From NCBI GenBank assembly GCA_949710005.1, contig OX453280.1, forward strand, positions 23,116,152 to 23,180,151: DNA of 64,000 bases, given 5' to 3'. Positions within the stretch are counted from its first letter, which is position 1. The number at the start of each line of letters is the position of its first letter. The DNA comes from Ricordea florida (taxonomy: Eukaryota > Cnidaria > Anthozoa > Corallimorpharia > Ricordeidae). The notes under the pieces are model-generated. The model made no database searches and was not told the DNA's origin. It saw only the letters and a program-made list of their open reading frames with translations. A program made the translations under genes and the position numbers. This document shows positions 3,661-60,720 of the stretch, one piece after another.

Positions 3661-3734
3661 AACGTTGCTTGCAAATCTACCGGTTTCTCTCTTTTTGCTT
3701 CTGTCTTCGTGGAGGAATTTTCAGTCAGTAAAAG
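3661..3734 (+). CDS. Gene A putative signal-peptide exon lacking an ATG
   Basis: After an acceptor (aaacgCAG|) the frame reads LLANLPVSLFLLLSSWRNFQ and leaves by a phase-1 donor (AAAAG|GTACGT), which matches the phase-1 start of the next exon. The hydrophobic core and layout resemble the signal exons of genes B, C and D, where an ATG lies 19-25 nt after the acceptor. Here the frame has no ATG between an upstream TAA at 3629 and the core; an ACG sits at 3662. Either the start was lost, a near-cognate start is used, or the true signal exon lies elsewhere. Confidence 0.4.
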
Positions 3735-6700
3735 GTACGTGAAAGTTAATTAAAAGAAACACGCGATTCTAATCCTATGTGATCAACATGCATACTTTCA
3801 TTACAATATTTACCACTTTTAATGCAAACGGATGACGAGAATTGAGTATATCAGCTTGCTTTAAGCATGGAGAATAAATTTAAAAAAATATTTACAAAAA
3901 TAACAGAAAGACGGCGGTTGACGTCGTCGAATGAACTTTAATGAACTTTATTTGGGTGTCAACTGTATCTAGCACTGACGTACTAATTGGGGACACGGAA
4001 TGAAACCAAATCAGATCATTTTAAATCAAATCGACTATTGGTTTTTGTAAAGAGGGGAAAACTGGAGTACCCAGATAAAAACCTTTCGGGACAGGGTAGA
4101 GAAACAACAAACTCAGCCCAAATATGACGCCGCGGCCGGAAATCGAACACGTGCCACATTAGTGGAAGGCGAGAGCTCTCACCACTGCGCCAACCCTGGT
4201 GGCACCAAGCGCGGGAAAATGCTTACGATCCACTTATGTTTGGTATTAGATTTATTTCTGATTGAATGGGAAATCGGCGTGAGATACTTTGTCCAGTCAA
4301 CTACAGTAGTAAAATGCAGAACTAAAGAGTAACGTTCACCCGAGTTTAAGATTTAAATGGAGTTTAACGTCCTTGCACCATAAACTGAACAGTCAAAGAA
4401 AATTTGACAAAACAAGGGGGGGGGGGGGGACAGATGCAATAAACACACCCAATATGTAAAGCAGGATAATGCACTTGACACGGATCACCCAGCTTTGCTT
4501 CCTGATTCTATCTTCATCGGATCAGTCTAAGGATTGGCCAAACTATATCAGCTCGGTACACTGATTTTAGTTCATGTGTACACGCAAACGCAAATATTAA
4601 TTGAAGCAGGTCTGACTGATGGGAATGGCATCGAGCCTTAGGGACGGACCATTACAAAAGTGATGGGGGGGGGGGGGGGGTGGGGAATTTTCAGCTTGCA
4701 CGAATTTTTTTTTTCGCTCACTCCTTGTGCAGGAATTTTTTTTCAGGTGAACCCCTCTGCACGAATTTTTTTTTACTGCGTGTGAAAAAGTCACAATTGG
4801 ACCTTCCTTCTGCATGAATTTTTTTTTACCTTCTTCTTTGCATGATTTTTTTTTCTTGGCATTTTCCCTTGCATGAATTTTTTTTTTGTTTTTTTCCCCA
4901 CCATCCCCCTCCCCATCTCTTTTCTAATGGTCCGTCCCTTAGATTCAAAATGGGATTGGTATTCAAATGTGTAGGGTGTGTAGGGTGTGGAGGGTTACTC
5001 CTAAGTGTAAAGGGAGGGTGGGGAGGGAGCTAGATATTCATACGGTGTACATAATACCTTAATATGGTTTTAAACAAACTGTGCTTTCTCCTCTCTCTTT
5101 TCTATATATGTACATCGATTTGTTTACAGCTGATTGCAAAAACTTTGATTTCGAGGATGGTGCGGGGGGACTGGGCGCGTGGAACAAGACTGGAGAAGCG
5201 TTTAACAACCAGCCTACGTTCGGCGACAACGTGCACATACGGGATACTGGGTTCAAAACTAACGTGCAAGGTGATTGGTGGATTGGAACGTTTGAAGACA
5301 GGTCAAATGCAAGCAGCGAAGGAGGATACTTTAAAGGCGATTTCCCGCGGGGAACCCTGACATCACCCAAATTTCTCATCATTGGGTCAAATATTAACTT
5401 TTTGCTGGGAGGAGGTTGTGACGCGGGAAAATTGCGGGCTGAACTGCTTATAAAAGGAAAGGTTGTCAGACAGGCTGTAGCTGATAGCTGCAATGACAAA
5501 ATGGAAAGACGGCGTTGGGACGTTTCACCGTTTATAAATAAAACAGCGCATATCCGACTGGTTGATGCGTCCAGGCGAGGACACATCAACTTTGATGATT
5601 TTAAAGGAAATTTTACCTGTATCGGTAAGCAGATCATAGATAAACACAACAAAAATCACAAGCTACAGTATCAAGAGTATCAACAAAGTGCATCAATATC
5701 AAACCAGACTGGCGAGTAAGATTTCATACTATCTGCCAAAAGCAAGGACTAATTACGGCAAATTTAATATTCGTTTTTTCGGTGCTAAAGTTTGGAATTC
5801 CATTGATGACCCACTTAAATCTAAGAGTCGTGCTTGCTTCAAAAATCTCTTAAAAGAACTGATTATCTCCAACTACCAACTGGTACATTGATGTTCTTTA
5901 TTTTCATTTCTCTTTGTGCACATCCACTTTTTTGTTTGTTCTCTCTGTGTGTGTGTGTATGAATGGAAATCGTGTCCCTGTCCAATATTTTTCCGCTTGG
6001 CCCTAGCCACTTAGCTCGATTAGCCTTAGCTATTTCTAAGTGGCTGTGGTCATTTTTTTTTTATTGTTAATATTTTCTCCTTGTGTGTATTTATCTATTG
6101 TAAACGTTTCTGGGCACGAAAATAAAGATTGTTGTTGTTGTTGTTGTAACGAAAATTACCTCGGTAGAATACTGTTCAGCAGCTTTCAATAGACGAAAAA
6201 GTTAAACACGGACTGTACAGAAAAAGAAAAAGTACTGCGACACATTATTGTTCATTAGTTTTTCAAAGTGCGGTCATACTGCATGGTTTGTATTGCTAGT
6301 TGACTAAGAAGATATTATGACAATAATCTTTGCTTGTCATCTCTGCATGCCTGTCTGGTCTCTATCTACACCTTTTTTTCTCGACGGTAATTCATACGCA
6401 TTTCGCCACAGGAGTCCCAATAGCTGATGATAATGATGATGATGAAAACGATGATGTTGATGCCTATACTGAGGACAACAATGATTTTACTGTGACAGAA
6501 GAAAAGGAGTTTCCTACAGACACAAAGAACGTTGAAGAAAACTCCGATGGCGGTCTTATTACAGGAACTGGTAAGAGAAAAGGCCATCAATGAATACTTG
6601 TTTTTTTTATTATTTTTTTTTTTCAACGAAACTGATTGGCAGAGATTTCTTCGTTTCTTGACAACACATCATCATTGATGACAGTAAAAAATAAATACAG

Positions 6701-9700: not shown

Positions 9701-12700
9701 ATTAATTGATATTTGAAGCCACTGGACTGTTCACCTGCTTCCAGGGTGGAAAAGTTGTTTAGTTCACCTGGTAGAGCATCGCAATAGTATTCACAAGATC
9801 GTGGGTTTAATTTAAATCTCGTTCCATCCTGTTCTCCTCTAGGGTCAAATCACAATTGCCAAAAATTGCGGTACTGAATACCAGTACAGCAGGAGTAAGT
9901 CAGCTGCATTGTAAATATGCGATTTCGTTTATTCACCGAGAATCACTTCGCCTTCGGCGAGTAATTGTTTTAGTATAAATACACGGGTGATTATTTCAAA
10001 AAAGAAAAGAAAAAGCATTGTACAACACGAAAAAAATTTATTTCATCAAAAGCGCGCGAACGACTGGCAGCCATTTTGTTCGTCGAGGTGATTATCGGCT
10101 GATAATCCGAGATAGCGAACCAATCAGAGCGCGCGATTTTGTATAATCACCTGAGTATTTATACTGAATAATGATATTCAAAATTTCTTTTTTCATTTGC
10201 AGACGACGAACTCAGTGCCATAAGCAAGACTTCGGGACCAGAGAATGGTATTACCAGTGTCAAAGGTAACCTACTGTTGTCTCAAGACTACTAAGCTTCA
10301 GCTATCGCTCAATCAGTTAGAAACAGATTGAAGTAGTAAGATCCCTTCCAAATAGGTTAACGGGAACTATATATCCTGCCAGACAATCTTCAGGACGGTT
10401 ATCGAAGTTATGAAAACACTTCTTCTCACAGTCATAGTTTAGTCCAATAAAATGAGTCTTTTTTTTAACAGAAGGAAAAGCCACAAGCAACTTGTCTGGA
10501 CCAGAAGTTGGTATCAAAAAAGCAAAAGGTACTTGTTAAGGCTGCTGATTACAAGCTACCATCCTCAGCTGTGACAAAGTACTAGCTATTGTCTCGAATA
10601 TGACCTTGATGTTTTCACCTAACTTCAAAAACACAATAATTCATGAAATAAATACAGAAGAAATAAATTTTGAATGAGTGTCTTTATATCTGATACAGAC
10701 ACGGCTAACATTTGCGTTCAATTTTGTTGGTCAAAATACACCAAAATCCAAAGTTCAAATGTAGTAATGAATAGGTCTACATAAAACGTTTTTGAAACCG
10801 TTCAATAAACTCGCAATTCGTGTTTTATATTTGATAAAACACTCCTGCTCGTTTATTAAACTACACTTGAATCATCAATGTACTAAATTATTTCATGACT
10901 ACGTATACGTACATATTATATACGAACACTTTCGCCAACTGAGGTTCAGAAATGTTTTCATCAATCAATTCATTCATTTATTTGCCGCCTTGTTCTTAAA
11001 GTCACTGAATCACTACTTCACTTAGTCTTTTTATTGCTCAATCATTTACCAACGTGTTCGCTCAGTTAGTCACTAACTCACTCATACACCCTCACTCACT
11101 CACTCACTCACTCATACACTCACTCACTCAGTCATTCACTCATTAACTCACTCACTCATTTACTCACTCGCTCAGGCACTCACTCACTCATTCAACCACA
11201 CACTCAATAACTCATTCACTAACTCACTCACTCACTCATTCACTCACTCACTCCTTCACTCACTCACTCATTCACTCTCTCATTGATTCATTCATTCCTC
11301 TCATTCCTTCATTCTATCGTTGATTCGTTAGATCATTTCGTTCTTTCTGAAACCAATCATTTAGCTACGCACCTATCTGCACAACTGTGTATCGTCACCA
11401 GTATATACTCCATCGCCCGGCAGTAAACGGTCCAAATAACAAAGTGATGTAAGACAAATGAAAAACTTTACATCATCTCTGGAAGTCTCTTTCTTAATCA
11501 ATAAAATATACATGTATCAGCCTTCTTAGGCAATCTTCGCAAGCAGGTGAGCAGACAAGGGTCATTGGTCGGCAAAGGTGTCCCTCTCTTCAAGACGGCA
11601 AAGCTTGCAGATAAATCAACTGGCAACGCGTCCCACAGTGGCGGGAATAACGCATCTGTTCCCGTGAATGACGAATTGCGAAATCTGTCATGTAAGAACC
11701 CCTTTCGTTTCCCTGTTGAGATCCAAGTAGTGATTCCCTTTTACAAGTGCTGTACGCGTCCTTATAAGTTAGTTTGAAGAATTTGGTGTCTGGGCAATTC
11801 AAGTTTCTTTCGGTGTGCAGACATATGATTTATTTCTTCAAATTGCTTAACCTCCTTCAGTTCGTAATTTCTCAAATTTCATCAACTGACGTTTTGTTAA
11901 GTATCGATACTGTAAGGCGAAGTTACAAATTGATCACCTCTGGAATTTAAAGTGTTGATATCAGACAAGAGCACATTATCGGAGTGTTCATCCGGCATTC
12001 GTGTTGCTCATGCGGCATTAGGCAATCCGATCTAAGATTGGGGTTGCGGGTTCGACTCCCACCGAAGTCGAAGACTTTCTAGGTCTCGTATTATACACGG
12101 TCCTCCTATTTTCCCCTCTTAAGGCCATAGCTCCCAAAAACCTATGTGAGAAAAGTGTGGAATATCTCGTCTTCTCACTGAGAAATTATTCAGTTACATT
12201 GATTTAGCAAATCATCATATACCGATATTATCGATCTATCTGTATTTTATACTGGCATTGACAGATTAAATATGCGTGGAAATTCCCACTTAACCCGTTG
12301 GCTATTAATCGCACTGCAATTATTTATAGGTAAAGACTACGTGACCGAAATAAAGACAGGAAAGCCATGGGACAACGATTTCCTCTTTATATCGAACGAG
12401 AATTATCAGGCCACGAGGAGAGAGATGGAAGTCAGGGTAAGATAACCCCCAAACCGTGGAATTATATGAGCCATCAGCAAATTTGAAAAAAAAAAACTCG
12501 TTTACACTTCAAGAAAAATGAATCGTTAACCTTGACACTACCATTAGCCCTTTCAAAGGGGAACAGCAGTGCACTGTAATTAAGATATACAATTCCAATG
12601 TTACAGCTTGAGTCGAAGCGGTTTTGAAATAAAGTCCGCTCAGGACTTTTTTGGCAGTTTTTAATACACTCTTACAAATCCCAAACCAGACTTATTATTG

Positions 12701-15700
12701 TGGCCAATCACAACAGTCACAAGCAATACAACGAACCAATAAGAACTCACGGAAAATGCACGTCGTCAGCATCAAGGGTGGGAAAACGTTCGCAACTTCG
12801 TCACTGTTGGTTTATTTCTGATCGGGTGAGACGGTTCTGTACAAATAAAAAGTTGCAAGTTTACATTTGACGGAGAATCGAAAACATTTATAGCAACCTG
12901 CTAGTTAAATTTGCCCTAGACCGATTAATCCTGCAGTTTATAAAAGGACCACGTTTCTGGTTCTGCATTCCTCCAACTGTAAAAATAATCCAAAAATATT
13001 GGTATAAAGTAATGACTTCGCAGCAATTGACATGACTGGATCAAAAACTGAAAAACTCTGAACTCGTAGTTCAGCATTTTTTGTCACTTTATTGCGCTAG
13101 GTCAACATAGAACATACTTATTTTTCTTGGACAATTCTGTCCAAGGGGGAAAGGCGCAATTAGGTTATCCCTATATGAAGAGCCAACCCAAAGGCCAGAC
13201 CACAACACCTGGGATTACTTGTCCTACTCTTTACGATCAGTGTGTGGGTTCTTTTAACGTCCCACTCAGTTATCATGAACAAGAGTTGTGAGACGGGACC
13301 TACGGTTTATTGTCCTTATCCGAAAAGACTAGAAAGTCTAACCATTTACAGCAATTTCTTCTCAGTTATTTAAGACCCTGAGAGTTGGTCCGGCCGGGGT
13401 TTTTAACCCGCGACTTCTCGCATGATAGTCCGGTGCTCTACCAACTGAGCTAACCGGTTGGCGGTTGTTGTAGCTATTTTATGTTTCATCATTTTATTAT
13501 TTTTTTTTTCAGGTGCTCAGTGCTTACGAAGAGGACAAAGACTTCCGCGGCGCTTTCTTTAATAAGTTTAGGTCAGTACATTGTACATTGTGGATTTAGT
13601 AAATTTGTTGTTAGGTCGATTTATTAACTTCGAATTGATAAGTACCTCAATTCTCATCATCTGTTTGCATAATAGTGTAAATAACATCGTAAGGAGAAGT
13701 CACATATTGGTCACTACTCGTAGTAATTAAGAGAGTAAACCATATGTCAGTCAATCATTGCCTCTTGAATACACATGTCAAGTTTCTAAGCACGCTATTG
13801 GATTGGAAAAGTGTCAAAAGAGCGACTTTCCGACTTTTCGACCTGTTAGAAGCACAAGTTAAAAATTTTAATTTCGCTCAATTTGTAATCGTTGATAACC
13901 CTAAATTAGTAATCAAACAAGCTGTAGTTAGTTTTACTAAACACGGCTTCCTTTCGTGGAAATTCGAGAAAACTCGTTTTGCCCGACTTGGGTTCAAAAA
14001 CTACTTCCGGTAAAACGGGATTTTCGTTAAATTTGATCGATTCGCGCTACGAACTGCGACCAGTTGCGAGACTTTGAGAAACGTGCGTATAAAGTATGAC
14101 CGATTCTAATCGTGGGCTGTAACTTAGAATTCCCTAAAATGACCCTCTGCGGGTTAATTAGACACTAATCTATCAGAAAATCAAAAGAAATCTTTGGGGA
14201 AACGGTTTTAGTAGTCCGTAGGACACGAAGTTTAAAATTGCGGTTTTTTCATTGTAAGTAATTGCTTATGAGCGAATTACTTATGAGCGAAATAGAAATT
14301 GTGAACTTGTGCCACGAAAGGTCGATTTTGGTTGTTATATTTACAGAAAGTCGCTAATGAGTGGAAAAAAGCAACTGATCCGTATCATTCGTGTTGTGGT
14401 TTGATGTTACAATACTAAGGGACCGTTAATTTTTTTACGAGGGAGGGAGGCTGGTGTGATTCTGAAAGTTCCATTTAAAAATCGCATGAACTCCCTTGAA
14501 GCACTAATTTTTTCAGATGACCCCCTCCAATTTCTTATACCACAGAGACTTGTTTATCGGAGAGCACAAATCAAAAGAACGAGAAGTCAATTTCAGATTA
14601 AAACATTATTACATTAAAGTCTTCCTAAAATATTTCACGTGATCCCCCTTTCCCTCATCTTTTTGGGATGGCCTCTCCTCAGAAGCAGTTTTTTTTTCAC
14701 GTGCCCCCACCCTCCTAAATCCCATCAGCACCCCCTCCCTTGCAAAAAATGAACGGTCTCTAAAGGTACTCCGGCAGTCTCGATTCAGTTATTTCACTAA
14801 CTTCGAGTATGCATTGAGAATCCAGTATCGAGCGTCGAAAATCCAGTTTCGAGTATCGAGAATCGAGTATCTAGTTATGGAGTATGGAGTATGGAATATC
14901 GAGTCTGATCAAGTATCGAGGATCCAGTATCGAATGACGAGTTACTCGAGAATATCAAAACTCAGGTGTCGGGTGTTGAGTATCGTTAATCGGGTATCAA
15001 TAATCGAGTTTAAAGTATCAAGAATCGGTAATCGAGAGTCGAGTATCGAGTAACGTGGAACCAATATGGAGTATCGATTATCGGGTGTCGAGAATCTCAT
15101 ATCGATCGTCGAGTATCGAGTACTGACAATCCTTCATTGAGCAGTTGAGTTTAGAGTATCGACAAACTAATAACCTTCAGAGTATTTTTTTTCTTTTCAG
15201 CTCATCAGAGGAGCCGGATGGCATTAAAGCGTACTTTACTCTGAGATTCAGAGCCTATGGAAAGTTCCTTGGCAGACTTATGGATGCTCTGGGCAAAGAG
15301 AACGTGACAGCAGCAGGTAAAAACAAATGTATCGTATTCTTTGACATGTTTTACATTTTCATGGCCATATGATAGGATTTTACCAGTAGCGGAAAGGTTA
15401 GGAACCTGTCTATTGAAAAACAGTTCTGCATGTAGAGTCGCCGCACCTCTTAGAATATATACCTCTTCGTCGGTTGCATAGCTTGTCAGCAAAATGTACC
15501 GTGAATACTGTACCAACAAAGAACTTCTGCTAAATGTCTTGATTATACACCTGTGTTTTGCAAGTAAGTCTGGGTTGACTTTTTAACACTACTTGTTAAA
15601 ATAGACATTCAAATTTTTGAAAACTGATTGTATCATATTCTAACAGGTTTAACTGGTTGACCAAGTGGGTTTTCATTTTTTAAATGTGTTCATTCTGGTT

Positions 15701-17939: not shown

Positions 17940-18722
17940 CTTGTTGTAAAATAGGCCACCGGTAAGTTGTTGAATAGACCAGTTAACGCCAAAAGGTTAA
18001 TGAACGTCTACCGTCTTCTGTGATATTTAGTCTTGATCCCAAGAACTGAAGAAGGAAACTTCTCATGGCGGCAGAAACGATGGCCAGCCTGATTATTTCA
18101 CCAGGCTGCGTTAACATGTTCAAAGCTGTTAGGTGTTACAATTGTTTGAACTCACTTTGCTCCAAATTGCTTGATCTAAATTCTCAGTTTTCCGGTTATT
18201 TAAAACAAACTGAGGTGGTCTTCAATGCAAGAATACACATGGTAAGCATTGTGTAATCAAGCAGAGCAAACATCCCAAAACAGGCTTTTTTTCTTTTTTC
18301 AAGGCTGCTATGTTTCTCCTTCTGCTGCATCTTCTTGTCCGAGTTCCTGTCCTGTAACTTGTGCTCCCTCCTGCCAACCATCTTGCTGCCAAGCCCAGAG
18401 TTCTGCTTCACCTCTTCCACAAGCATTCTCCCAACAAGCCCCTGCACCCATGTCACCTCCTCCTACCCTTCAGTCACAGCCATCTTCATACACACTTTAC
18501 CAACCAGCTGCCTTGCAATGGAATCTCCAGCCGTCCCAGACTCCCGCTGCCCCGGCCCAGTCACCGATGATGATGTGGCCTGGATCCCAATGCTCTACGC
18601 GTTGTTCCCCAAGCTGCGCGCCGTCGTGCTCGCCCTTGTGCTGTAATTATTTCAACTACAAGCGAAAGGCGGGAATTGCAATGCTTTTAAAGAAAGAAAA
18701 ACTTCGGGAAGAGAAAAAGTAA
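3661..18722 (+). CDS. Gene A: secreted levanase-type-domain / SEA / double-CRD protein (11 mapped exons plus a putative signal exon)
   Basis: Exons: putative signal exon 3661-3734, then 5130-5624, 6412-6570, 8145-8207, 9435-9476, 10203-10265, 10472-10528, 11530-11691, 12330-12436, 13513-13571, 15201-15316, 18304-18722. From 5130 onward the phases close exactly to the TAA, giving 580 residues after the signal region. Order: levanase-type beta-sandwich (residues 1-165), acidic Ser/Asp/Glu linker from several small exons, Lys/Asn/Ser-rich segment, SEA-like domain (about 349-441), CRD (453-470), Pro/Gln spacer, CRD (538-555) and a basic tail. The CRDs point to the nematocyst capsule, where this domain is known to form inter-protein disulfides. 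The 5' end is unresolved, since the putative signal exon has no ATG. Introns are phase 1 except the two inside the SEA domain (phases 0 and 2). Confidence 0.8.
3930..4201 (-). mobile_element. tRNA-derived SINE, family 1 (minus copy)
   Basis: Read on the minus strand it begins with a tRNA-like head (GGTTGGCGCAGTGGTGAGAG-type A box, altered B box). It continues with the body shared with copies at 24404-24740 and 61733-61980 and ends near AAAGTTCATT. It lies between the putative signal exon and the next exon of gene A. Confidence 0.7.
4641..4938. mobile_element. PIF/Harbinger-like MITE, copy 1
   Basis: Terminal inverted repeats GGGACGGACCATTA are flanked by TTA on both sides (4638-4640 and 4939-4941), the 3-bp TWA target duplication typical of PIF/Harbinger. 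The interior is a run of A/T-homopolymer blocks, each carrying a variant of TTCATGCA, plus a long G run. A second copy in the opposite orientation is at 32016-32300. Confidence 0.75.
5130..5624 (+). CDS. Gene A exon: levanase-type beta-sandwich (carbohydrate-binding-like) domain
   Basis: This 165-codon exon is bounded by CAG| and |GTAAGC, phase 1 on both sides, so it is a free-standing shuffled module. Diagnostic motifs in order are FDFEDG, GDWWIGTFEDR, PRGTLTSPKFLI, INFLLGGGCD, AELLIKGKVVR, RRWDVSPFINKTAHIRLVD and GHINFDDF. This is the beta-sandwich module found with glycoside hydrolase family 32 (levanases) and as a stand-alone domain in marine animals. No GH32 catalytic propeller is present, so binding rather than hydrolysis is likely. 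The usual GGWGHI is altered to SRRGHI. Confidence 0.8.
5640..6152 (+). mobile_element. Non-LTR retrotransposon (LINE) 3' remnant inside an intron of gene A
   Basis: The frame at 5688-5891 reads like the last part of a CR1/L2-type reverse transcriptase ORF (motifs ARTNYGKFNIRFFGAKVWN and FKNLLKELI, then a stop). About 240 bases of 3'UTR follow, ending in AATAAAGA and a (TTG)n tail near 6130-6148. It is 5'-truncated and begins just after the donor of the levanase-type exon. Confidence 0.7.
6160..6300 (+). repeat. Diverged copy of the repeat seen upstream of gene D
   Basis: Blocks such as ACTGTTCAGCAGCTTTC and GGTCATACTGCATGGTTTG recur in the tandem array at 59690-60720. This is a single, diverged copy inside gene A. 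Confidence 0.5.
6412..6570 (+). CDS. Gene A exon: acidic linker
   Basis: A 53-codon exon, phase 1 on both sides (CCACAG|GAGTCCC ... GGAACTG|GTAAGA). It is dominated by Asp, Glu and Asn (DDNDDDENDDVDAYTEDNND). Probably an extended, disordered, strongly negative spacer between the lectin-like domain and the rest. Confidence 0.75.
6748..6900. mobile_element. Partial MITE (5' half of the 41193-41450 family)
   Basis: Starts TTTAAAGCCTGGTTTTCACC and continues with GCAAGCATAAGGATCAGCAG, matching the terminal repeat of the full element at 41193-41450. The opposite end is missing. Confidence 0.5.
6961..7096. mobile_element. Hairpin MITE, family shared with 49512-49640
   Basis: The two halves are reverse complements (CCTTGGTTCAAATTTTATTT against ATTTGAACCAAGG) around TTCTGGTATGGTAATTTATG. 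The same palindrome is present at 49512-49640. Confidence 0.6.
7330..7915. repeat. Foldback repeat fragments
   Basis: Inverted pieces such as GAGATACGAAATTTC and GAAATTTCGTATCTC, plus ACTCGAAGxxAAAT blocks, are repeated in both orientations. They resemble broken copies of the palindromic element at 8608-8766. No coding content. Confidence 0.4.
8145..8207 (+). CDS. Gene A small exon 1 of the acidic series
   Basis: A 63-nt phase-1/phase-1 exon (TTACAG|AGGACGAA ... AAAGAAG|GTAGCT) encoding EDEYKAMNDSTGTQESSYTK. It shares the start E-D-E and the Ser/Thr/Gly pattern with the next three exons, suggesting tandem exon duplication. Confidence 0.65.
8608..8766. mobile_element. Palindromic MITE
   Basis: Nearly perfect inverted halves: TTACACGGTGGCGCGAAGAT on the left matches ATCTTCAAGCCGCCGTGTAA on the right, around GAACGAGCGCAGCGAGTGAG. 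Related fragments lie at 7330-7915, 15880-15965 and 32560-32600. Confidence 0.6.
9435..9476 (+). CDS. Gene A small exon 2 of the acidic series, with an altered donor
   Basis: A 42-nt exon (ATGCAG|AGGATGAA ... GAAAATG|GTATTA) encoding EDESSSTSNSEPEN. Aligned with 10203-10265, the bases after AATGGTATTA correspond to exon sequence there, and the site matching the downstream donor (CAAAG|GTAACC) reads GAAAG|TTGCAA here. The usual donor is therefore lost and the internal GTATTA, in the same phase, is the likely substitute. It may also be skipped; since 42 is a multiple of three the frame holds either way. Confidence 0.5.
9740..9850. repeat. Decayed tRNA-like SINE fragment
   Basis: TTTAGTTCACCTGGTAGAGC resembles a tRNA D-arm with an A box, and GATCGTGGGTTTAA a broken B box. 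Too diverged to fold. Confidence 0.3.
9973..10164. mobile_element. MITE with GTATAAATAC terminal repeats, copy 1
   Basis: The ends GTATAAATACACGGGTGATT and AATCACCTGAGTATTTATAC are inverted repeats. The interior (CATTTTGTTCGTCGAGGTGA and AACCAATCAGAGCGCGCGAT) is shared with copy 2 at 32865-33069. Confidence 0.65.
10203..10265 (+). CDS. Gene A small exon 3 of the acidic series
   Basis: A 63-nt phase-1/phase-1 exon (TTGCAG|ACGACGAA ... TCAAAG|GTAACC) encoding DDELSAISKTSGPENGITSV. It is the best-preserved member of the repeated exon set and shares GPE(N/V)GI with its neighbours. Confidence 0.7.
10472..10528 (+). CDS. Gene A small exon 4 of the acidic series
   Basis: A 57-nt phase-1/phase-1 exon (TAACAG|AAGGAAAA ... 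GCAAAAG|GTACTT) encoding EGKATSNLSGPEVGIKKAK. It is clearly related to the 9435 and 10203 exons (ATSNLSGPEVGI against STSNSEPENGI) but has become basic at its end. Confidence 0.7.
11085..11290. repeat. (CACT)n microsatellite
   Basis: Imperfect tandem CACT/CATT repeats over about 200 bases in an intron of gene A. Confidence 0.9.
11530..11691 (+). CDS. Gene A exon: linker before the SEA-like domain
   Basis: A 54-codon phase-1/phase-1 exon (TTCTTAG|GCAATC ... TGTCAT|GTAAGA). The peptide NLRKQVSRQGSLVGKGVPLF leads to a Ser/Asn-rich part and ends LRNLSC, whose Cys codon is split across the intron. Gene C has the same ending (STLSC) before its SEA-like domain, which confirms the homology. Confidence 0.75.
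11990..12130 (+). repeat. Decayed tRNA-derived SINE fragment
   Basis: GGGTTGCGGGTTCGACTCCC contains a good B box (GGTTCGACTCC); the A-box half is diverged. The body ends near TTTTCCCCTCTTAAGG. Confidence 0.4.
12330..12436 (+). CDS. Gene A SEA-like domain, exon 1 of 3
   Basis: Enters in phase 1 (TTATAG|GTAAAG), leaves in phase 0 (GTCAGG|GTAAGA). It encodes CKDYVTEIKTGKPWDNDFLF followed by ISNENYQATRREMEVR. The pattern W..xFxxxSxxYxxxxxxxExxV fits the first strand and helix of SEA domains. The matching exon in gene C (38952-39127) shares LSC..Y(L/V)...KTG. Confidence 0.7.
12437..13184. other. intron, nothing recognised
   Basis: Intron of gene A without recognisable repeats apart from A/T runs. 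Confidence 0.4.
13185..13458 (-). mobile_element. tRNA-derived SINE, family 2 (minus copy 1)
   Basis: On the minus strand it starts AACCGGTTAGCTCAGTTGGT (A box TAGCTCAGTTGG). Its body, with TTTTCGGATAAGGACAATAA, is shared with 33590-33973. The B box is damaged here (GGGTTAAAAACCCC). Confidence 0.7.
13513..13571 (+). CDS. Gene A SEA-like domain, exon 2 of 3
   Basis: A 59-nt exon, phase 0 to phase 2 (TTTCAG|GTGCTC ... TTTAG|GTCAGT), encoding VLSAYEEDKDFRGAFFNKF. Its length and phases equal those of the gene C exon 39494-39552. Confidence 0.7.
13572..14799. other. intron, nothing recognised
   Basis: Mostly unique-looking AT-rich intron of gene A. The 89-codon frame at 13744-14013 has no recognised domain and no splice context. 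At 14420-14760 there are diverged pieces with AACGGTCTC and CCCCCTCC that may be a decayed MITE. Confidence 0.35.
14800..15130. repeat. Degenerate minisatellite (TCGAGTAT-type)
   Basis: Many imperfect copies of ATCGAGTATCGAGAATC-like units over about 330 bases, ending shortly before the third SEA exon of gene A. Confidence 0.85.
15201..15316 (+). CDS. Gene A SEA-like domain, exon 3 of 3
   Basis: Phase 2 to phase 1 (TTTCAG|CTCATC ... GCAGCAG|GTAAAA). It encodes SSEEPDGIKAYFTLRFRAYG then KFLGRLMDALGKENVTAA. The alternating pattern GIKAYFTLRF is the typical C-terminal SEA strand. The autoproteolysis motif GSxxV of mucin-type SEA domains is not seen (SSEEPDGIKA), so self-cleavage is not expected. 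Gene C has SSSVFLILKF at the same place. Confidence 0.7.
15880..15965. repeat. Fragment of the palindromic MITE family
   Basis: GGTGAGCGCAGCCAACGAGT and TTCATATCTCCAAGTGGCTA match half of the element at 8608-8766. Confidence 0.45.
16301..16336. repeat. (TA)n microsatellite
   Basis: Pure TA dinucleotide run abutting a Penelope-like segment. Further TA runs lie at about 16567-16589, 16971-17018, 17252-17290 and 17892-17938, each at the edge of a repeated segment. Confidence 0.95.
16337..16590 (+). mobile_element. Penelope-like segment, copy 1 (hammerhead-like core)
   Basis: Begins GGCACTGCAACTGATGAAGG and contains CTGATGA, a GGTC-ATT-GACC hairpin and GAAAC, which is the order of a hammerhead core. 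It continues through a TA run and CGCTCGAAGTTGTCCGTCC to GGCTCGAAGCATCATAAC. Direct copy at 17664-17940, inverted partial copy at 17291-17432. Stem I pairing is not visible. Assignment to Penelope-like elements is an inference from the known association of such motifs. Confidence 0.5.
17085..17254. repeat. 170-bp palindrome containing the hammerhead motif
   Basis: GTAGTTGTTGCGGGGG on the left is mirrored by CCCCCGCAACAACTA on the right, with nearly perfect arms meeting near 17170. TA runs lie on both sides. The right arm repeats the ribozyme sequence without its 5' stem I strand. Confidence 0.85.
17129..17173 (-). ncRNA. Type I hammerhead ribozyme candidate
   Basis: Read on the minus strand: UAUCCC (stem I 5'), CUGAUGA, GUGG-GCAA-CCAC (stem II with tetraloop), GAA, ACA-GGCU-UGU (stem III), A, GGGAUA (stem I 3'). 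All conserved core bases are present. Stem I pairs 6 of 6 and stem II 4 of 4; stem III has 3 bp with a 4-nt loop, plus a possible extra G.U pair. The cleavage triplet is GUA, so the predicted cut is between the bases complementary to 17135 and 17134. The short stem III is typical of hammerheads described in Penelope-like elements and retrozymes. It lies antisense to gene A, in its last intron. Confidence 0.8.
17291..17432 (-). mobile_element. Penelope-like segment, copy 2 (inverted)
   Basis: Reverse complement of parts of 16337-16590. It carries GGCAATTGTGGAAAACGAGG and, at the far end, CAATGACCTTCATCAGTTGC. Confidence 0.5.
17664..17940 (+). mobile_element. Penelope-like segment, copy 3
   Basis: Direct repeat of 16337-16590, almost identical, beginning GCACTGCAACTGATGAAGG. 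The 230 bases before it (17433-17663) carry CACGCCCTGTTATGTAATC and CCTATTTAAGGACATTGTAA and may be more of the same element. Confidence 0.5.
18304..18722 (+). CDS. Gene A last exon: two minicollagen-type CRDs
   Basis: Acceptor TTTTTCAAG|GCTGCT, phase 1. The first CRD is CPSSCPVTCAPSCQPSCC and the second CSTRCSPSCAPSCSPLCC; both have the exact CxxxCxxxCxxxCxxxCC spacing. Between them lie 67 residues rich in Pro, Gln, Ser and Ala with no Gly-X-Y collagen repeats, so this is not a minicollagen. The C-terminal tail KRKAGIAMLLKKEKLREEKK is strongly basic. In known nematocyst proteins CRDs switch from intra- to intermolecular disulfides when the capsule wall hardens. Confidence 0.9.
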
Positions 18723-23981: not shown

Positions 23982-24045
23982 ATGGCACGTCTGCATTGTT
24001 ACATTTGGCCATTTCTTTTGGCTTTAATCTGGTACCAATGGCGAG
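23982..24045 (+). CDS. Gene B exon 1: signal peptide
   Basis: ATG then MARLHCYIWPFLLALIWYQW: a short basic start and a hydrophobic, aromatic core, leaving by donor GCGAG|GTGAGC in phase 1. Same layout as the signal exons of genes C and D. Confidence 0.8.
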
Positions 24046-27700: not shown

Positions 27701-27925
27701 GCTGGCCAGTGTCCAGTTCCCTGCTCACCTGTCTGCGCACCAAAGTGCGCTTCAACTTGTTGCAATAGCAGTTTGCCTGCAAAGCCATTCATTGTAGGAA
27801 ACTTACAGGCTGCTCAGCGGACGAAAAGAAGTATAAAGCCAAAGTCCAAGACACGAAAACTCGTGTTTCTCCTACTGAAAAAGAATTGGCGCCAACATCA
27901 AAATCCTATAACAATTCCACAATGA
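23982..27925 (+). CDS. Gene B: secreted Cys-module / double-CRD protein, complete (303 aa)
   Basis: Exons 23982-24045, 24931-25134, 26226-26381, 27295-27390, 27534-27925 total 912 nt and close in frame. All four introns are phase 1. Layout: signal peptide (about residues 1-21), GCF...CYSG...YVY Cys module (about 23-141), Pro/Thr linker, CRD (190-207), Pro/Tyr/Val spacer, CRD (233-250) and a basic tail with a QRTKRS site. It is a shorter sister of gene C without microexons or SEA domain. The ATG lies 25 nt after an acceptor (CCCTAG|GATTCA), so a noncoding first exon exists upstream. The CRDs suggest the nematocyst wall; no collagen repeats are present. Confidence 0.85.
24250..24415 (+). repeat. 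24-bp tandem repeat made from the SINE head
   Basis: About six or seven copies of GGGAGCAGGGTTGGCGCAGT plus GTTG stand just before the SINE at 24404. The unit equals the first bases of family 1 SINEs (compare the end of the copy at 61980) and includes the A-box region. Confidence 0.9.
24404..24740 (+). mobile_element. tRNA-derived SINE, family 1 (plus copy)
   Basis: The tRNA-like head carries an A box (TGGTGCAGTGGTGAGAG) and a B box (GGTTCGATTCC). The body follows (CTGGGTACTCCGGTTTTCCC, CCCAATTAGTACGTCAGTGC) and the element ends in a long (TTA)n tail. It sits in intron 1 of gene B. Confidence 0.85.
24931..25134 (+). CDS. Gene B exon 2: Cys module, first half
   Basis: 68 codons, phase 1/phase 1 (TTAACAG|TCTCGG ... 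TTACG|GTAAGA). Key pattern: KKLGCFRDKKLEDRPLPELL, YVDGLVHRCAAKA, IGYTVFGIENY. The matching exon in gene C is 34926-35138 (RVGCFSEK, VKRCCAAAG, YKFFAINN). Such modules recur in secreted cnidarian proteins; I know no settled function. Confidence 0.85.
25135..26225. other. intron, nothing recognised
   Basis: Intron 2 of gene B. The repeated phrase CCCTCCAAAAAxGCTTGAAA occurs twice near 25770-25850. No domain or transposon end was recognised. Confidence 0.35.
26226..26381 (+). CDS. Gene B exon 3: Cys module, second half
   Basis: 52 codons, phase 1/phase 1 (TACCAG|CTGATT ... GGACCAC|GTGAGT). It encodes DCYSGDGGELTYKRDG, five further Cys-spaced acidic residues and DDSIYVYKPGP. Gene C exon 35993-36139 aligns (NCYSGKG, YVYKMQ), but here the middle is acidic where gene C is basic. 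Confidence 0.85.
26570..26650. repeat. SINE family 3 tail fragment
   Basis: AACAACTTAAGCAGTTGCAG and TCAGGCCTGAATTGA match the tail of the element at 32590-32742. Confidence 0.4.
26740..26887. mobile_element. Palindromic MITE
   Basis: GGATATGAAGAATTAAGCGG mirrors CCGCTTAATTCTTCATATCC, with AATTAATGAAT and ATTCATTAATT at the outer ends. The loop region is GAGGCCGTAGGTCGAGG. Confidence 0.75.
27295..27390 (+). CDS. Gene B exon 4: Pro/Thr linker
   Basis: 32 codons, phase 1/phase 1 (CCCTCAG|CTGCGA ... AAAACAG|GTACTG), rich in Thr and Pro (TPRTPVWTPSGTTPTKATPP). Probably O-glycosylated and extended. Equivalent to the 37878-37985 exon of gene C. Confidence 0.8.
27534..27925 (+). CDS. Gene B exon 5: two minicollagen-type CRDs
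   Basis: Acceptor TTACAACAG|CAACAAAA. CNVKCQTSCVPTCPLVCC and CPVPCSPVCAPKCASTCC have the canonical CRD spacing, with a 25-residue Pro/Tyr/Val spacer between. The 53-residue tail is basic and includes a dibasic QRTKRS site that could be processed. Confidence 0.9.
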
Positions 27926-31694: not shown

Positions 31695-31752
31695 ATGAAG
31701 CATCCTTTGGCTTTTCTTCTACCAGCTTTCTTGCTTTTTATCATTTTTACCG
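31695..31752 (+). CDS. Gene C exon 1: signal peptide
   Basis: MKHPLAFLLPAFLLFIIFTG is a typical signal sequence with a phase-1 donor (TTTACCG|GTAAGT). Confidence 0.85.
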
Positions 31753-41527: not shown

Positions 41528-43449
41528 AGTAGTTTTAATAGGGACCTTAAGCAAAACACAACGACGACGTCGACTACAACGGCACCACGCAATAGCGTTG
41601 ATGAACGAGACAATGAAATTGCACGTGTAAAATACAGTCTGGTAGATTTCTTTGCTGTCCTCTGCAAAACAACAACGTAAAATGACCATTTTCACGTTTT
41701 CTGGATGACGCACAACGACAAAATAGGCAAGAAAAATTTGTAATGAACTGTCAACGGGTCATGAAAAATGGTAGGGTTGTGGAATGTGGCTTGAAATGAC
41801 AACGTCAAAATGTAGTAAGGGTAAGTTGAAGCCACACATATGAGCACTAATGCGACAGTGGTAGAAGGGATAAAACCCTGTTATTACCAAAAAGCGTGAA
41901 CGGGTTAGGTAACGGTTTGTAAACGGTTTGAAAAGTTATGGAAAGAAAGTGAAACAAGCCTGCCGCCATTTGTACGAGAGAAATACAAATCAGTTTTCTC
42001 GAACGTCGCGTCCTCGGTGTCGTCGTAGTTCTTTCTTAAGCTCCCTAATGTAAATATGCTGAAAAAATTGTTGGAATAAAACAGTTAAATCTTAATCTTC
42101 ACGTTTTTTTGTCTATCAACAGCTCATCATCTGTTTTCCTAATACTGAAGTTCACTTGTCAAGGGCAACACTTGAAGAAGCTTGTTACTGGGCTAGGAGC
42201 CAGTAACATCATCAAAGCAGGTCAGCGGATGACTAACTTCAATAGCGCACTTTAAGTACTCCTTGTAAAGAAACGGATCGAATTTTTTTTGGATACCTAT
42301 CACCTCTGACGAGAAAACGTACATTATAACATAGCTTTCGGAAAGCGCGCGCTATGATTGGCTAATACGCGCGATCCATTTGCTCGTGACTTGCATGCTG
42401 ACGTTAGATTGTGAAGTTGGGAAGTCTTATGTTATAAAAGAAATGGTAAACGTAGCAGCTGTACAGCCATCGAATTATGGACGAACTTGGGAGTTTGCTA
42501 AGCACTTAAGAAGCGAGAGATGCTCGCGGCTGCGCCTCGAGCATCTCTTACGGTTCTTTCGTACTTAGCAACCTGCCGCGTGCGTCCATAACTCGATGGT
42601 TGCACTCTACACGTTTACCATTTCTTCACCAGCGAACAGCATAAAGCAGTGTTAGTGAACGGATGGTGAATGGGGGGCCATGCCGTTGGTTAGTACCCAC
42701 ACAATAAAAGGCTAACAAAGGTTTGAATAGCTGACAACGATTTGTAGTGAACTGCTAAGGAAAGCTTAAGAGAGGTTAAAGTACACAGTTCAAATACTGT
42801 GAAATATTATTCTGACTCTGAAAATGATTAAGGGTGCAAAGCATTTGAACACATTCAGCCGTTGTATTGACACAGATTCTCCTCGGTGCCCCCAAAATCC
42901 TCTATTTTTAAATTGCAAATGGAACTTTTTGCATCTCTTCCGCGTCGTACATTAAGAAGTTTATAAACCGTTTGGTAGGTAATTTGAATTATTATTTACT
43001 TAATCACTTATGTTATTTCTTAAACATGTCTGTTTAAGCGTGTTCATTTTTCGTTTTTTTCTTCTTTTTTTTCAGAATGCTACCCACCCTTCTGTTCTTA
43101 CGGCACGCCATCGACGTCTCCCTGTACTTCACCATGTGGAATGTCTGCATGCGTTTCCGTGTCACCCTACCCCCAGGTGCCATCCATGTGCCCAGCAGCA
43201 CCCCTCCCGCAGCCAGCGCCACTTCCGCCACCAGCGCCACTTCCGCCACCAGCGCCATTTCCTCCACCACAGTGTCCAGCACCTTGCCCCACGATGTGTG
43301 CTCCCTCATGTAACTCATTCTGCTGTCGTTCTATAATGCGCAGCCAGAAGGGAACCGGCCTGGCGTCTAAGAAGTCATCGACACATAATATTGACAGCGT
43401 TGATGGTGACGACGGCGAGGACGAGGACAATACAGATATTGACGAGTAA
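31695..43449 (+). CDS. Gene C: secreted Cys-module / SEA-like / CRD protein, complete (423 aa)
   Basis: Exons 31695-31752, 32520-32537, 33516-33536, 34926-35138, 35993-36139, 37878-37985, 38952-39127, 39494-39552, 42123-42220, 43076-43449 total 1272 nt and close in frame. Layout: signal peptide (1-19), two microexons, Cys module as in gene B (about 33-153), Thr/Ala/Pro linker, SEA-like domain split by a Pro/Thr insert (about 190-299), a degenerate Cys block (301-338), a Pro-rich spacer, one canonical CRD (366-383) and an acidic tail (DDGEDEDNTDIDE). It joins the front half of gene B to the back half of gene A, so the three probably arose by duplication and exon shuffling. Introns are phase 1 except the two SEA introns (0 and 2). 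Confidence 0.85.
32016..32300. mobile_element. PIF/Harbinger-like MITE, copy 2
   Basis: Ends GGGACGGACCATTAGAAAAG and its complement are flanked by TAA (32013-32015 and 32301-32303). The interior repeats AAAAATTCATGCA-type blocks. Opposite orientation to copy 1 at 4641-4938. Confidence 0.8.
32520..32537 (+). CDS. Gene C exon 2: 18-nt microexon
   Basis: Flanked by CCCTCACAG| and |GTATGT; codes ENDLVR with split Gly codons on both sides (phase 1/1). Inclusion keeps the frame, but so would skipping. Confidence 0.5.
32590..32742 (-). mobile_element. tRNA-derived SINE, family 3
   Basis: The minus strand at 32742-32670 folds like a tRNA: 7-bp acceptor (GGCUUGA/UCAGGCC), D arm GCTCAGTTGGTAGAGC, T arm with TTCGAAT. 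The anticodon stem is mismatched and U33 is absent, so it is not a functional tRNA. It is followed by a tail with TCAGGCTTTAATTTCACAGC. Confidence 0.7.
32865..33069. mobile_element. MITE with GTATAAATAC terminal repeats, copy 2
   Basis: Same ends and interior as 9973-10164. The similarity extends about 20 bases further left (GAATAATTGTTT), so the true element may be slightly longer. Confidence 0.65.
33516..33536 (+). CDS. Gene C exon 3: 21-nt microexon
   Basis: Flanked by AATTCTAG| and |GTAAGG; codes GQDQSSI with phase-1 boundaries. Low-complexity polar spacer before the Cys module. Confidence 0.5.
   Translation, partial: DKIRAA
33590..33973 (-). mobile_element. tRNA-derived SINE, family 2 (minus copy 2)
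   Basis: Minus-strand head ACCAGTTAGCTCAGTTGGTT with intact B box (GGTTCGAACC). The body matches 13185-13458 (GTAGGTCCCGTCTCACAAC). Confidence 0.75.
34060..34547 (+). mobile_element. LINE 3' remnant
   Basis: The frame near 34190 reads LATKLWNSLPTEIRSGSDIK followed by DFKQNS, the usual end of CR1/L2-type reverse transcriptase ORFs. A 3'UTR ending in AATAAAG and a (TTA)n tail follows. Heavily 5'-truncated; lies in intron 3 of gene C. Confidence 0.65.
34926..35138 (+). CDS. Gene C exon 4: Cys module, first half
   Basis: 71 codons, phase 1/1 (TTCTTAAG|GTTGTC ... AATATAG|GTAATA). Pattern GCPGFKLQRVGCFSEK, VPVLLFTDKKKK, VVKRCCAAAGKK, FFAINNIG. More basic than the gene B version and carries a doubled Cys (RCC). 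Confidence 0.85.
35139..35172. repeat. (AAT)n microsatellite
   Basis: Trinucleotide run starting directly at the exon 4 donor of gene C (ATATAG|GTAATAATAATAAGG), so the donor lies within the repeat. Confidence 0.9.
35993..36139 (+). CDS. Gene C exon 5: Cys module, second half
   Basis: 49 codons, phase 1/1 (TTCTCCAG|GAAATT ... ATGCAGC|GTAAGT). It encodes NCYSGKGVSATYARLGKSKT, then Cys-spaced Lys-rich sequence and ESNYVYKMQ. Aligns with gene B exon 3. Confidence 0.85.
36140..37250. other. intron, nothing recognised
   Basis: Intron of gene C with only low-complexity AT-rich sequence. Open frames on both strands lack domain resemblance. Confidence 0.35.
37255..37455 (+). repeat. Interspersed repeat (CCCCCCTGGATGGGATGCTA family)
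   Basis: Contains the widely dispersed block CTCCCCCCTGGATGGGATGC followed by TAGTCCATCGTACGG and ACACCTGGGTGGAGAGAAAC. Partial copy at 29735-29850. Probably the body of a SINE or the tail of a longer retroposon. Confidence 0.65.
37878..37985 (+). CDS. Gene C exon 6: Thr/Ala/Pro linker
   Basis: 36 codons, phase 1/1 (TTTTTAG|GTATAC ... GAGCT|GTACGT). Low-complexity (PTTPTNKPTAKPAGASTTS), ending STLS plus a split Cys codon, as in gene A. Confidence 0.8.
38020..38580 (-). mobile_element. LINE 3' remnant (minus strand)
   Basis: The minus frame 38408-38220 reads YRCRVILGDRSFQVAAPVLW and NVLPREIRSITDLGIFKCHL, the familiar C-terminus of a reverse transcriptase ORF. On the right it continues into sequence with CCATGGATTAGCGCCAACG; on the left it ends in an (ATT)n run near 38020-38070. 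Confidence 0.7.
38900..38945. repeat. (CT)n tract before an acceptor
   Basis: TTTCTCTTTCTCTCTCTCTG directly upstream of the gene C exon 7 acceptor; it serves as a very strong polypyrimidine tract. Confidence 0.8.
38952..39127 (+). CDS. Gene C exon 7: SEA-like domain part 1 with Pro/Thr insert
   Basis: Enters phase 1 and leaves phase 0 (GTCTAG|GCCAAA ... AAGAAG|GTAACG), as in gene A. CQNYLVAVKTG aligns with CKDYVTEIKTG of gene A. Then about 38 residues of Thr/Pro/Ala repeats (with APTVATPATTAPT) lead to LSPKQSIEKK, which aligns with the helix before the splice site. The insert lies inside the predicted domain. Confidence 0.7.
39494..39552 (+). CDS. Gene C exon 8: SEA-like domain part 2
   Basis: 59 nt, phase 0 to 2 (TTCTGTAG|GTGAAG ... 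AACGCAAG|GTGTAG), coding VKEIYKGYSCLACLKPVNA. Exon length and phases equal those of gene A exon 13513-13571. It carries two Cys not present in gene A, possibly a disulfide. Confidence 0.65.
39810..39917. mobile_element. Hairpin MITE
   Basis: CACTTAATATATGGTCCCTA mirrors GGGACCATACGTTAAGTG, with AACTAGTTAGTTTTG-type inner complement. Confidence 0.7.
39920..40630. other. Unclassified; possible solo LTR or promoter-bearing repeat
   Basis: Contains the palindrome TGTATCCCGATCGGGATACA, a TATA-like TATATAAG near 40130, GTACGTACG, and a late AATAAATAG followed by GTTCGTAGCGGAACTACG. This order (TATA, then polyadenylation-like signal) resembles an LTR, but no target duplication or internal retroviral region was found. 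Confidence 0.25.
40840..40945. repeat. Tandem repeat of about 35 bp
   Basis: Three imperfect copies of AGATATAAATAGATTCCGCG plus CTAAAAGATATATA. Confidence 0.85.
41193..41450. mobile_element. MITE with long terminal inverted repeats
   Basis: CTAAAGCCTGGTTTTCACTA and the inner GCAAGCATAAGCAAA are mirrored by TTATGCTTGTGTCGTAGTG and AAACCAGGCTTAAG. A half copy lies at 6748-6900. Confidence 0.7.
41498..41530. repeat. (GTT)n microsatellite
   Basis: Eleven or so GTT units; the poly-Cys and poly-Thr frames here are artefacts of this run. Confidence 0.95.
42123..42220 (+). CDS. Gene C exon 9: SEA-like domain part 3
   Basis: Phase 2 to 1 (TATCAACAG|CTCATC ... AAAGCAG|GTCAGC). SSSVFLILKFTCQGQHLKKL then VTGLGASNIIKA aligns with SSEEPDGIKAYFTLRF and MDALGKENVTAA of gene A. 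It is 18 nt shorter. Confidence 0.7.
42441..42624. mobile_element. Palindromic MITE
   Basis: AAATGGTAAACGTAGCAGC at the left mirrors CACTCTACACGTTTACCATTT at the right; the centre is GAGATGCTCGCGGCTGCGCC. Long GC-rich stem. Confidence 0.65.
43076..43449 (+). CDS. Gene C exon 10: degenerate Cys block, Pro spacer, one canonical CRD, acidic tail
   Basis: Acceptor TTTTTTCAG|AATGCT. CYPPFCSYGTPSTSPCTSPC then GMSACVSVSPYPQVPSMC holds six Cys in altered spacing. A Pro spacer (LPPPAPLPPPAPFPPP) leads to CPAPCPTMCAPSCNSFCC, a textbook CRD. The tail ends in an Asp/Glu cluster, unlike the basic tails of A and B, so partners of opposite charge are possible (inference). Confidence 0.9.
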
Positions 43450-46420: not shown

Positions 46421-46429
46421 GTTTTCAGG

Positions 46430-57830: not shown

Positions 57831-57927
57831 AACCTGTTGAGTTCTTAATGTGCTCGTGTATACAGGACTTTGAAATCTCATGTTACTCTGTAGTGACGTA
57901 GACTGATGACAGGATAGAATTGTATAA

Positions 57928-58187: not shown

Positions 58188-58260
58188 ATGTCAGTCTTCG
58201 ACTCAATACCTTGTTCTGTTTGGTTGAAATCAACATCACGCCATTTGAGTAACTTTCGAA

Positions 58261-59640: not shown

Positions 59641-59689
59641 TCCACAGATGAAAACCTTACAATCACACTGTATCAGGTGAAGACAACAG

Positions 59690-60720
59690 TACCACAGTAC
59701 AGTACTGTTCAGTAGCTTTCCAAAGAATGGTCACACTGCATGGTTTGATCCACAGAAGAAAAAAGTCAAAACCACACTGCACTGAAAAACAACAGTGCCA
59801 CACACACACACAAAAAAAAAAAGCAATTGAAACACAAAGTGAAATCCTCAAATCATTGATGTTATTCCGTACTCAGGCACACATGAATCCAGTGTTAACC
59901 TGCTCCTGACGTAGACTACTAGTTTTGCACAACTGGTTTATATGAGACGACTAAAACACAAATGTAAACGTTGTCTTTAAGCTTTTTCATAACTTGTTCG
60001 GTTTCCTACGTGATGCGAAATTTGATTTTGTTTGGATAAGAAAACAATACTTTTCATGAACTTTTCATGCATCATACATTCAAAAACGTAAACCCCATTA
60101 TTCGTTTGTTCTGAGCAGGTTTTATTCAGAACTGTTAATTTAAGAAAACTTGTGATCATTTTTCCCTTTTCAGTGCAATTTTGAAGTTCCCAAGATGAAG
60201 TCATCTCGTGTTGTCCTTGCCGTGTTTATCGGCTCCGTGCTTTGCTCCATTCACCCAATTTCTGGTTTGTATCAAATCACTGTGATGACAACATTACATA
60301 AAGAAATGTCGAACTTGTCAGGGATAACTTAGGCCAAAGCACAGACTGTCGTTATTGTGTTAAGTTAGAATTGAACAGACCGTAACAGTACAATACCAGT
60401 AGCTTTCCAAACAATGGTCACACTGCAGGGTTTGATCCGCAGATGAAAAACGTTAGACCCCCACTGTATAGTAAACAGTACCACACTACAGTACTGTTCA
60501 GTAGCTTTACAAAGAATTTTCACACTGTATGGTTTGATTGGCAGATGAAAAACGTTAGACCCCCACTGTAAAGTAAAAGAAAAAAACAAACAAACAACAG
60601 ATTCACTGCACAGTACTGTTCATTAGCTTTCCATAGAATGATCACACTGCCTGGTTTGTCCAAGGATATTAACGTTTGAGCTACACTGAATAGTAAAACA
60701 ACAGTGCCACAGTAAAGAAT
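59690..60720. repeat. Dispersed tandem units (about 110 bp) around the gene D start
   Basis: At least four copies of ACAGTACTGTTCAGTAGCTT ... TGGTCACACTGCATGGTTTG ... AACAACAGTGCCAC, near 59690-59800, 60375-60480, 60480-60570 and 60600-60720. They lie upstream and downstream of the signal exon. A single copy is in an intron of gene A (6160-6300). Confidence 0.8.
60195..60264 (+). CDS. Gene D (partial): signal-peptide exon of a probable fourth family member
   Basis: Acceptor CCCTTTTCAG|TGCAAT, 21 nt of 5'UTR, then an ATG opening MKSSRVVLAVFIGSVLCSIH and PIS, and a phase-1 donor (TTTCTG|GTTTGT, weak). The layout equals that of exon 1 in genes B and C. No downstream exon was found before the window ends, so its membership in the CRD family is inferred from layout and position only. 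Confidence 0.5.

Follow-up and report, generated by a model that had tools for sequence, protein, structure and literature searches.

Predicted coral genes that join carbohydrate-binding-type heads and SEA-like domains to collagen-free CRD tails

Introduction

Established CRD proteins outside the collagens comprise NOWA, Cnidoin (PMC4321713), CPP-1 (PMC6910907) and nematocyst-specific protein 4, NSP4 (PMC6134521). NOWA, known from Hydra and represented four times in Nematostella, is described as carrying a C-type lectin head followed by eight CRDs at its C-terminus. NOWA, Cnidoin, CPP-1 and the minicollagens are all described as nematocyst proteins, and for Nematostella a long collagen that bears a CRD is reported to be exclusive to cnidocytes. 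A CRD alone need not mean a nematocyst protein, however, because a 2016 paper (PMC4863159) relates that a single N-type CRD failed to polymerise and refers to a CRD in a mesoglea collagen of Nematostella as an unpublished result.

Here we analyze a 64,000-nucleotide stretch of the Ricordea florida genome (the window; C9:23116152-23180151), in which an original prediction had placed a cluster of modular, non-collagen CRD genes, and compare it with the rest of the genome (537,793,885 bases in 48 contigs) and with proteins of other corals.

Results

Three genes end in CRDs and lack collagen repeats

Regular minicollagen CRDs (Cx3Cx3Cx3Cx3CC) occur five times in the window, each time on the + strand, at 18336-18389, 18591-18644, 27581-27634, 27710-27763 and 43273-43326; none arises when the window is simulated 300 times with a first-order Markov model. 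They fall in the terminal exons of three genes: 18304-18722 in gene A (two CRDs), 27534-27925 in gene B (two) and 43076-43449 in gene C (one). The exact CRD spacing predicted for three adjacent same-strand genes holds for these five blocks; in gene C, the first of the two Cys blocks is irregular. In all three genes the terminal CRD exon is entered in phase 1 and reads to the stop, and in the models every junction from head domain to stop is GT/AG and phase-matched, in keeping with the predicted closure of the exon phases. Regular CRDs are confined to the C-terminus in models A–C and in the five gene A relatives described below, a distribution that departs from the minicollagen pattern of CRDs at both termini.

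In no frame of the window do seven or more Gly-X-Y triplets (with X and Y other than Gly) follow one another, in agreement with the original claim; as a positive control, the same scan finds 15 repeats at L036, a CRD exon elsewhere in the genome. Genes A–C are thus CRD-tailed without collagen.

Gene A joins a levanase-type domain, a SEA-like domain and two CRDs

From head to tail, gene A encodes a levanase-type jelly-roll, an acidic linker, a SEA-like domain and two CRDs, on the following exons:

3661..3734, + strand: possible exon for part of a signal peptide (tentative; no ATG), donor score 9.7
5130..5624, + strand: levanase-type (CBM/MAM-like jelly-roll) domain, phase 1-1
6412..6570, + strand: acidic linker, phase 1-1, from open frame and splice phases; relatives have a linker at the same place
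11530..11691, + strand: linker and start of the SEA-like domain, phase 1-1, from tblastn with P0122-P0127 and the model
12330..12436, + strand: SEA-like exon 1, phase 1-0, 67-72% identical to five coral relatives
13513..13571, + strand: SEA-like exon 2 (59 nt), phase 0-2, 59-73% identical to five coral relatives
15201..15316, + strand: SEA-like exon 3, phase 2-1, 53-68% identical to five coral relatives
18304..18722, + strand: last exon, comprising CRD, Pro/Gln-rich stretch, CRD, basic tail and stop, aligned end to end with five coral relatives

A query built from the levanase-type, acidic and CRD exons matches 98 of 2014 candidate proteins at E 0.01 or better, the best-matching named proteins coming from Stylophora, Montipora, Porites, Oculina, Acropora and Desmophyllum. 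Regular CRDs are present in five of the 166 matches listed from two protein searches combined, one of which contributed 120 of its 174 matches: P0122, P0123, P0124, P0126 (Montipora capricornis) and P0127 (Stylophora pistillata LOC111323849). Each of these carries a hydrophobic leader, as judged by eye, a levanase-type domain, a linker, a SEA-like domain, CRDs with a Pro-rich spacer and a charged tail. P0122, P0123 and P0124 lie on contigs of at most 2568, 2143 and 2400 bases, respectively, which are transcript-sized. P0126 and P0127 share the full gene A architecture, P0126 with three regular CRDs rather than two, and are deposited as uncharacterised; the literature searched contains no mention of LOC111323849.

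tblastn of these relatives against the window located four further gene A exons, and the resulting seven-exon model encodes 505 residues without an internal stop. Because this model aligns end to end with the five relatives, at 50-56% identity, the levanase-type and SEA-like domains belong to one protein. The original prediction had distributed a levanase-type domain, a ‘Cys module’ and a SEA-like domain among CRD genes; such domains are indeed present, but the first and last share gene A, and the ‘Cys module’ makes up one half of a WSC-like domain (see below). SEA-like exon 3 of gene A has no second place in the genome that our search could find.

The exon at 3661-3734, predicted as the start of gene A, has a good donor, a phase that fits the levanase-type exon and a hydrophobic reading in the frame that joins it, but it lacks an ATG and only weakly resembles the leaders of the relatives. 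In the joining frame, the leaders of two relatives match at E 4.6 and 99; with the leaders of three relatives, the best match (E 0.36) is in a frame that fails to join the levanase-type exon. We list it as a candidate; 1398-1452 is a weak alternative.

The head domain is homologous to the levanase-type accessory domain of GH32 in bacterial fructan beta-fructosidases P0159, P0164 and P0165 (E 3e-13 to 4e-7, 40-44% query cover), and such domains are found at 15 genomic places, counting those in the window, at E 1 or better. Its jelly-roll matches are unspecific, including CBMs and MAM domains but also gingipain adhesin, reelin, insecticidal-protein and phage tailspike domains, so sugar binding by the gene A head is putative. 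In the VIA match list, the jelly-roll (residues 26-185) takes up every place, so the list is silent on the SEA-like part. A single-sequence fold of the levanase-type exon has a mean pLDDT of 49. Pfam scans of single exons and an NCBIfam scan returned nothing useful, and PDB sequence searches with the levanase-type exon and with the gene B CRD region each gave zero matches at E 1; the sole PDB match obtained with an alignment profile (43 positions, E 0.01) was taken as chance.

Genes B and C carry WSC-like heads

Gene B consists of a WSC-like domain, a Thr/Pro linker and two CRDs, with no SEA-like part recognised:

23982..24045, + strand: candidate signal-peptide exon (tentative), hydrophobic, with ATG and a phase-1 donor scoring 10.5
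24931..25134, + strand: first half of the WSC-like domain
26226..26381, + strand: second half of the WSC-like domain (‘Cys module’), with a weak acceptor scoring -0.9
27295..27390, + strand: Thr/Pro-rich linker, open, phase 1-1
27534..27925, + strand: last exon, comprising CRD, Pro-rich stretch, CRD, basic tail and stop

Gene C has the order WSC-like domain, Thr/Pro linker, degenerate SEA-like domain, irregular Cys block and one regular CRD:

31695..31752, + strand: tentative candidate for the signal-peptide exon, with 33446-33536 as an alternative; the donors score 11.1 and 9.7
34926..35138, + strand: first half of the WSC-like domain, 38% identical to that of gene B
35993..36139, + strand: second half of the WSC-like domain (‘Cys module’), from the phase-1 exon listing and the Pfam match of the joined domain
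37878..37985, + strand: Thr/Pro-rich linker, phase 1-1
38952..39127, + strand: SEA-like exon 1 with a Pro/Ala/Thr insertion, phase 1-0, the top-scoring exon of that phase in the gap and of the same phase as in gene A
39494..39552, + strand: SEA-like exon 2, phase 0-2, 59 nt as in gene A, from the exon scan and the model
42123..42220, + strand: SEA-like exon 3, phase 2-1, from tblastn with three of the five relatives (P0122, P0126 and P0127; E 0.017-0.09 in the window)
43076..43449, + strand: last exon, comprising irregular Cys block, Pro-rich stretch, regular CRD, acidic tail and stop

Enumeration of phase-1 exons revealed that 24931-25134 and 34926-35138, which are absent from the original prediction, lie upstream of the ‘Cys modules’ and complete with them a domain of ~115 residues. 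The joined domain matches Pfam WSC (PF01822) below the cut-off of 27.8 bits in both genes (gene B, E 0.0014, 19.2 bits; gene C, E 0.0045, 17.6 bits). The first half from gene B recurs at 36 places in the genome, itself included, at E 10 or better, with 11 at 0.001 or better, two of them in the window. Among 17 of these loci that were read, six with the domain in one open frame were tested; all six match WSC, two of them above the cut-off (31.0 and 28.1 bits). Because these one-frame paralogs all match WSC, the ‘Cys module’ is best read as half of a WSC-like domain, and its status as a separate domain is ruled out. On C3, WSC-like copies stand in tandem alongside a frame read as vWFA-like, without a CRD, and no CRDs turn up in three stretches of 10 kb that surround WSC-like clusters on C3 and C4.

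Genes B and C are single open frames with consistent phases. The original prediction had suggested seeking the same architectures in other cnidarian proteins. For gene A, this search was rewarded with five full-length, CRD-bearing coral relatives among the matches listed; for spliced gene B, it returned no homolog at E 0.001 among 554 candidate proteins, and the support for genes B and C therefore comes from this genome.

The SEA-like domains of genes A and C share their exon structure

The SEA-like domains of genes A and C have the same succession of phases (1-0, 0-2, 2-1), with middle exons of 59 nt in both, and align end to end with 22% identity (E 8e-7 for the pair). For the exon of gene C that starts at 38952, the 176-nt form was preferred to a shorter one because it gives back the phases of gene A. 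Assignment to the SEA family is sub-threshold, as Pfam SEA (PF01390) scores 12.5-15.4 bits against a cut-off of 26.4 in three of the five gene A relatives and does not match the other two, and the order of strands and helices fits SEA roughly, with low to middling confidence. The autoproteolysis motif GSVVV, present in some SEA domains but not all, is found neither in gene A nor in its five relatives.

CRDs elsewhere in the genome

A fourth gene of the same layout had been predicted to follow gene C. We find a lone signal-peptide-like exon (60195..60264, + strand), which has an ATG and a modestly scoring phase-1 donor and encodes a hydrophobic leader. We recognised no partner for it, either in the window or between about 5 and 10 kb past the window's end, and a fourth member is therefore not supported.

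CRD-exon queries match at least 12 genome places outside the window, five of them with regular CRDs, an incomplete census that should not be read as a CRD gene count, as the queries were non-collagen CRD exons. The five regular-CRD loci are:

L036: minicollagen
L002 and L065: C8, 32.14-32.16 Mb
L003: C5, 10 regular CRDs
L037: C9, 18.06 Mb

Further CRD exons, of the polyproline type, lie beside L002 and L065 at L039 on C8. Gly-X-Y repeats were found in one of the eight stretches scanned (L036); these stretches are short, and the other four regular-CRD loci may still have collagen exons. Near L037, an exon for a SUEL lectin (Pfam 49.8 bits against a cut-off of 31.4) sits between two CRD exons, an adjacency rather than a common gene model.

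Discussion

We propose that genes A–C encode secreted modular proteins in which a carbohydrate-binding-type head is followed by a flexible linker, by a SEA-like domain in A and C, and by a Pro-rich CRD tail, and that these proteins probably act in the cnidocyst in a manner resembling NOWA. Given signal peptides such as those suggested by the candidate first exons, each protein would enter the nematocyst or spirocyst vesicle. There, disulphide reshuffling by its CRDs would fix the tail within the minicollagen polymer that forms wall or tubule, and the head would face glycan of the capsule, the tubule or the prey, which it may bind.

An alternative with some claim to attention, although we consider it unlikely, is that the tail is used outside the cnidocyst, in secreted adhesive, mucus, skeletal-matrix or immune proteins that rely on the same disulphide cross-linking. 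Both kinds of head are widespread in this genome, at 15 places for the levanase type and 36 for the WSC-like domain at the thresholds given above, and the tandem WSC-like copies on C3, beside the vWFA-like frame, have no CRD; the mesoglea collagen mentioned as unpublished (PMC4863159) would be a precedent for such use. Against this stand the descriptions of NOWA, Cnidoin, CPP-1 and the minicollagens as nematocyst proteins and the reported restriction of the long Nematostella CRD collagen to cnidocytes.

It seems more doubtful still that gene A alone works, with genes B and C as copies in decay or without expression. The failure of gene B to find a homolog at E 0.001 among the 554 candidates, the degenerate SEA-like part of gene C and the weak gene B acceptor at 26226 speak for this reading, but both models are open throughout with in-phase GT/AG splice sites, and regular CRD spacing is preserved. 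Finally, the idea that genes A–C are minicollagens whose collagen exon was lost or overlooked, which draws on the resemblance of the Pro-rich stretches between CRDs to minicollagen linkers, is scarcely credible, as the Gly-X-Y scan with its L036 control rules out a missed collagen exon in the window and the gene A relatives are complete proteins that lack collagen, refuting the idea for that gene.

Returning to the NOWA-like reading, we tentatively suggest a broader possibility, to which we would give somewhat less than even weight: the CRD-coding terminal exon of coral genes, running from phase 1 to the stop, could be a portable tag that exon shuffling has placed on unrelated glycan-binding-type heads, producing a family of ‘CRD-anchored lectins’ that would cover the wall or tubule of the cnidocyst and connect its glycan matrix with the minicollagen mesh. 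The heads in question would be the CBM/MAM jelly-roll, the WSC-like domain and perhaps the SUEL lectin, in addition to the C-type lectin of NOWA. To our knowledge, the link between the capsule polymer and its carbohydrate matrix and the binding properties of the tubule surface have been poorly explained so far. If the suggestion is right, NOWA would be one case of a general design in which several carbohydrate-binding-type heads share a common cross-linking tail. It would also supply named coral genes for testing and natural CRD-tagged globular proteins, comparable to the artificial CRD fusions of GFP and mCherry (PMC4863159).

As far as our searches go, CBM/MAM-type jelly-roll, WSC-like and SEA-like heads on CRD tails are new. 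In the literature searched, levanase-type, WSC and SEA-like domains are nowhere described as attached to CRD tails, and no protein is described that combines minicollagen and WSC; the Hydra nematocyst proteome (10.1074/jbc.M111.328203) lay outside the scope of that search and may list relatives. The broader proposal of a clustered family of modular, non-collagen CRD proteins finds support in the relatives of gene A and in the open, phase-consistent frames of genes B and C. A whole new class is nevertheless an overstatement, because CRDs outside minicollagens are already known from NOWA, Cnidoin, CPP-1 and NSP4 and the relatives of gene A are already deposited.

Among known systems, minicollagens share the CRD spacing and the Pro-rich linkers with genes A–C but differ in having Gly-X-Y repeats and an N-terminal CRD, in place of which genes A–C have a multi-exon globular head. 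Cnidoin (PMC4321713) and CPP-1 (PMC6910907) are, like the proteins proposed here, non-collagen and are capsule proteins cross-linked through CRDs; their CRDs flank an elastic or polyproline core, and a globular head does not figure in the descriptions consulted. NSP4 (PMC6134521) has a CRD in Hydra and, other than in Myxozoa and Polypodium, is rich in Cys and Pro; set against genes A–C by description, it differs in that its authors found no conserved domain. NOWA is the closest parallel, with a lectin-type head placed on C-terminal minicollagen CRDs, the position that CRDs also occupy in genes A–C. No C-type lectin is recognised by Pfam in spliced gene B, in spliced gene C without its SEA-like exons, in the exons of gene A or in its five relatives. 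Compared by description, then, NOWA combines a C-type lectin with eight CRDs, whereas genes A–C combine levanase-type or WSC-like heads, and in two cases a SEA-like domain, with one or two regular CRDs.

WSC-like domains and other frames

Stretches of the R. florida genome outside the window carry WSC-like domains or CRD exons in the following places:

C3:18.415-18.450 Mb (L067 and L068), WSC-like domains in tandem
C5:4.759-4.770 Mb, minus strand (L003 and L041), a multi-CRD frame and a Gln-rich frame
C8:32.06-32.16 Mb (L036, L065, L039 and L002), a second region of the genome rich in CRD exons
C9:18.057-18.070 Mb, minus strand (L040 and L037), CRD and SUEL-lectin exons

When the WSC-like half of gene B (exon 24931-25134) is the point of comparison, some of the tandem copies on C3, together with one copy on C4, outscore gene C, the other WSC-like-headed gene of the window. 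No CRD was found in the C3 stretches, one of which also contains a frame that we read as vWFA-like.

Within the window itself, inspection of the frame list by eye picked out, at 48049-58800, frames resembling a fragment of a RecQ-type helicase and a DIRS-like element that carries both a reverse transcriptase and a tyrosine recombinase. The same list includes two pairs of near-identical repeated frames, one in direct orientation (19389-19694 and 21257-21565) and the other inverted (44846-45300 and 46130-46467). To the right of the window the first ~5 kb (L042), where the exon at 60195 might continue, consist of N.

CRD exons elsewhere in the genome

In the C9 region, an exon with two CRDs is followed by a SUEL-lectin exon (49.8 bits, Pfam) and then by a CRD exon with polyproline; Gly-X-Y is absent from the stretches examined there. 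These exons, which may or may not belong to a single gene, are possibly nematogalectin-like.

The C5 region has 10 regular CRDs (spacing Cx3Cx3Cx3Cx3CC) in one frame, and ~4 kb upstream lies an open Gln-rich frame of 675 residues, for which a Pfam search returned no match. The resemblance of this region to a Cnidoin-type elastic protein is one of composition only. Besides one minicollagen exon, the C8 region holds several multi-CRD exons of polyproline or Gln/Pro-rich type, whose layout is like that of CPP-1.
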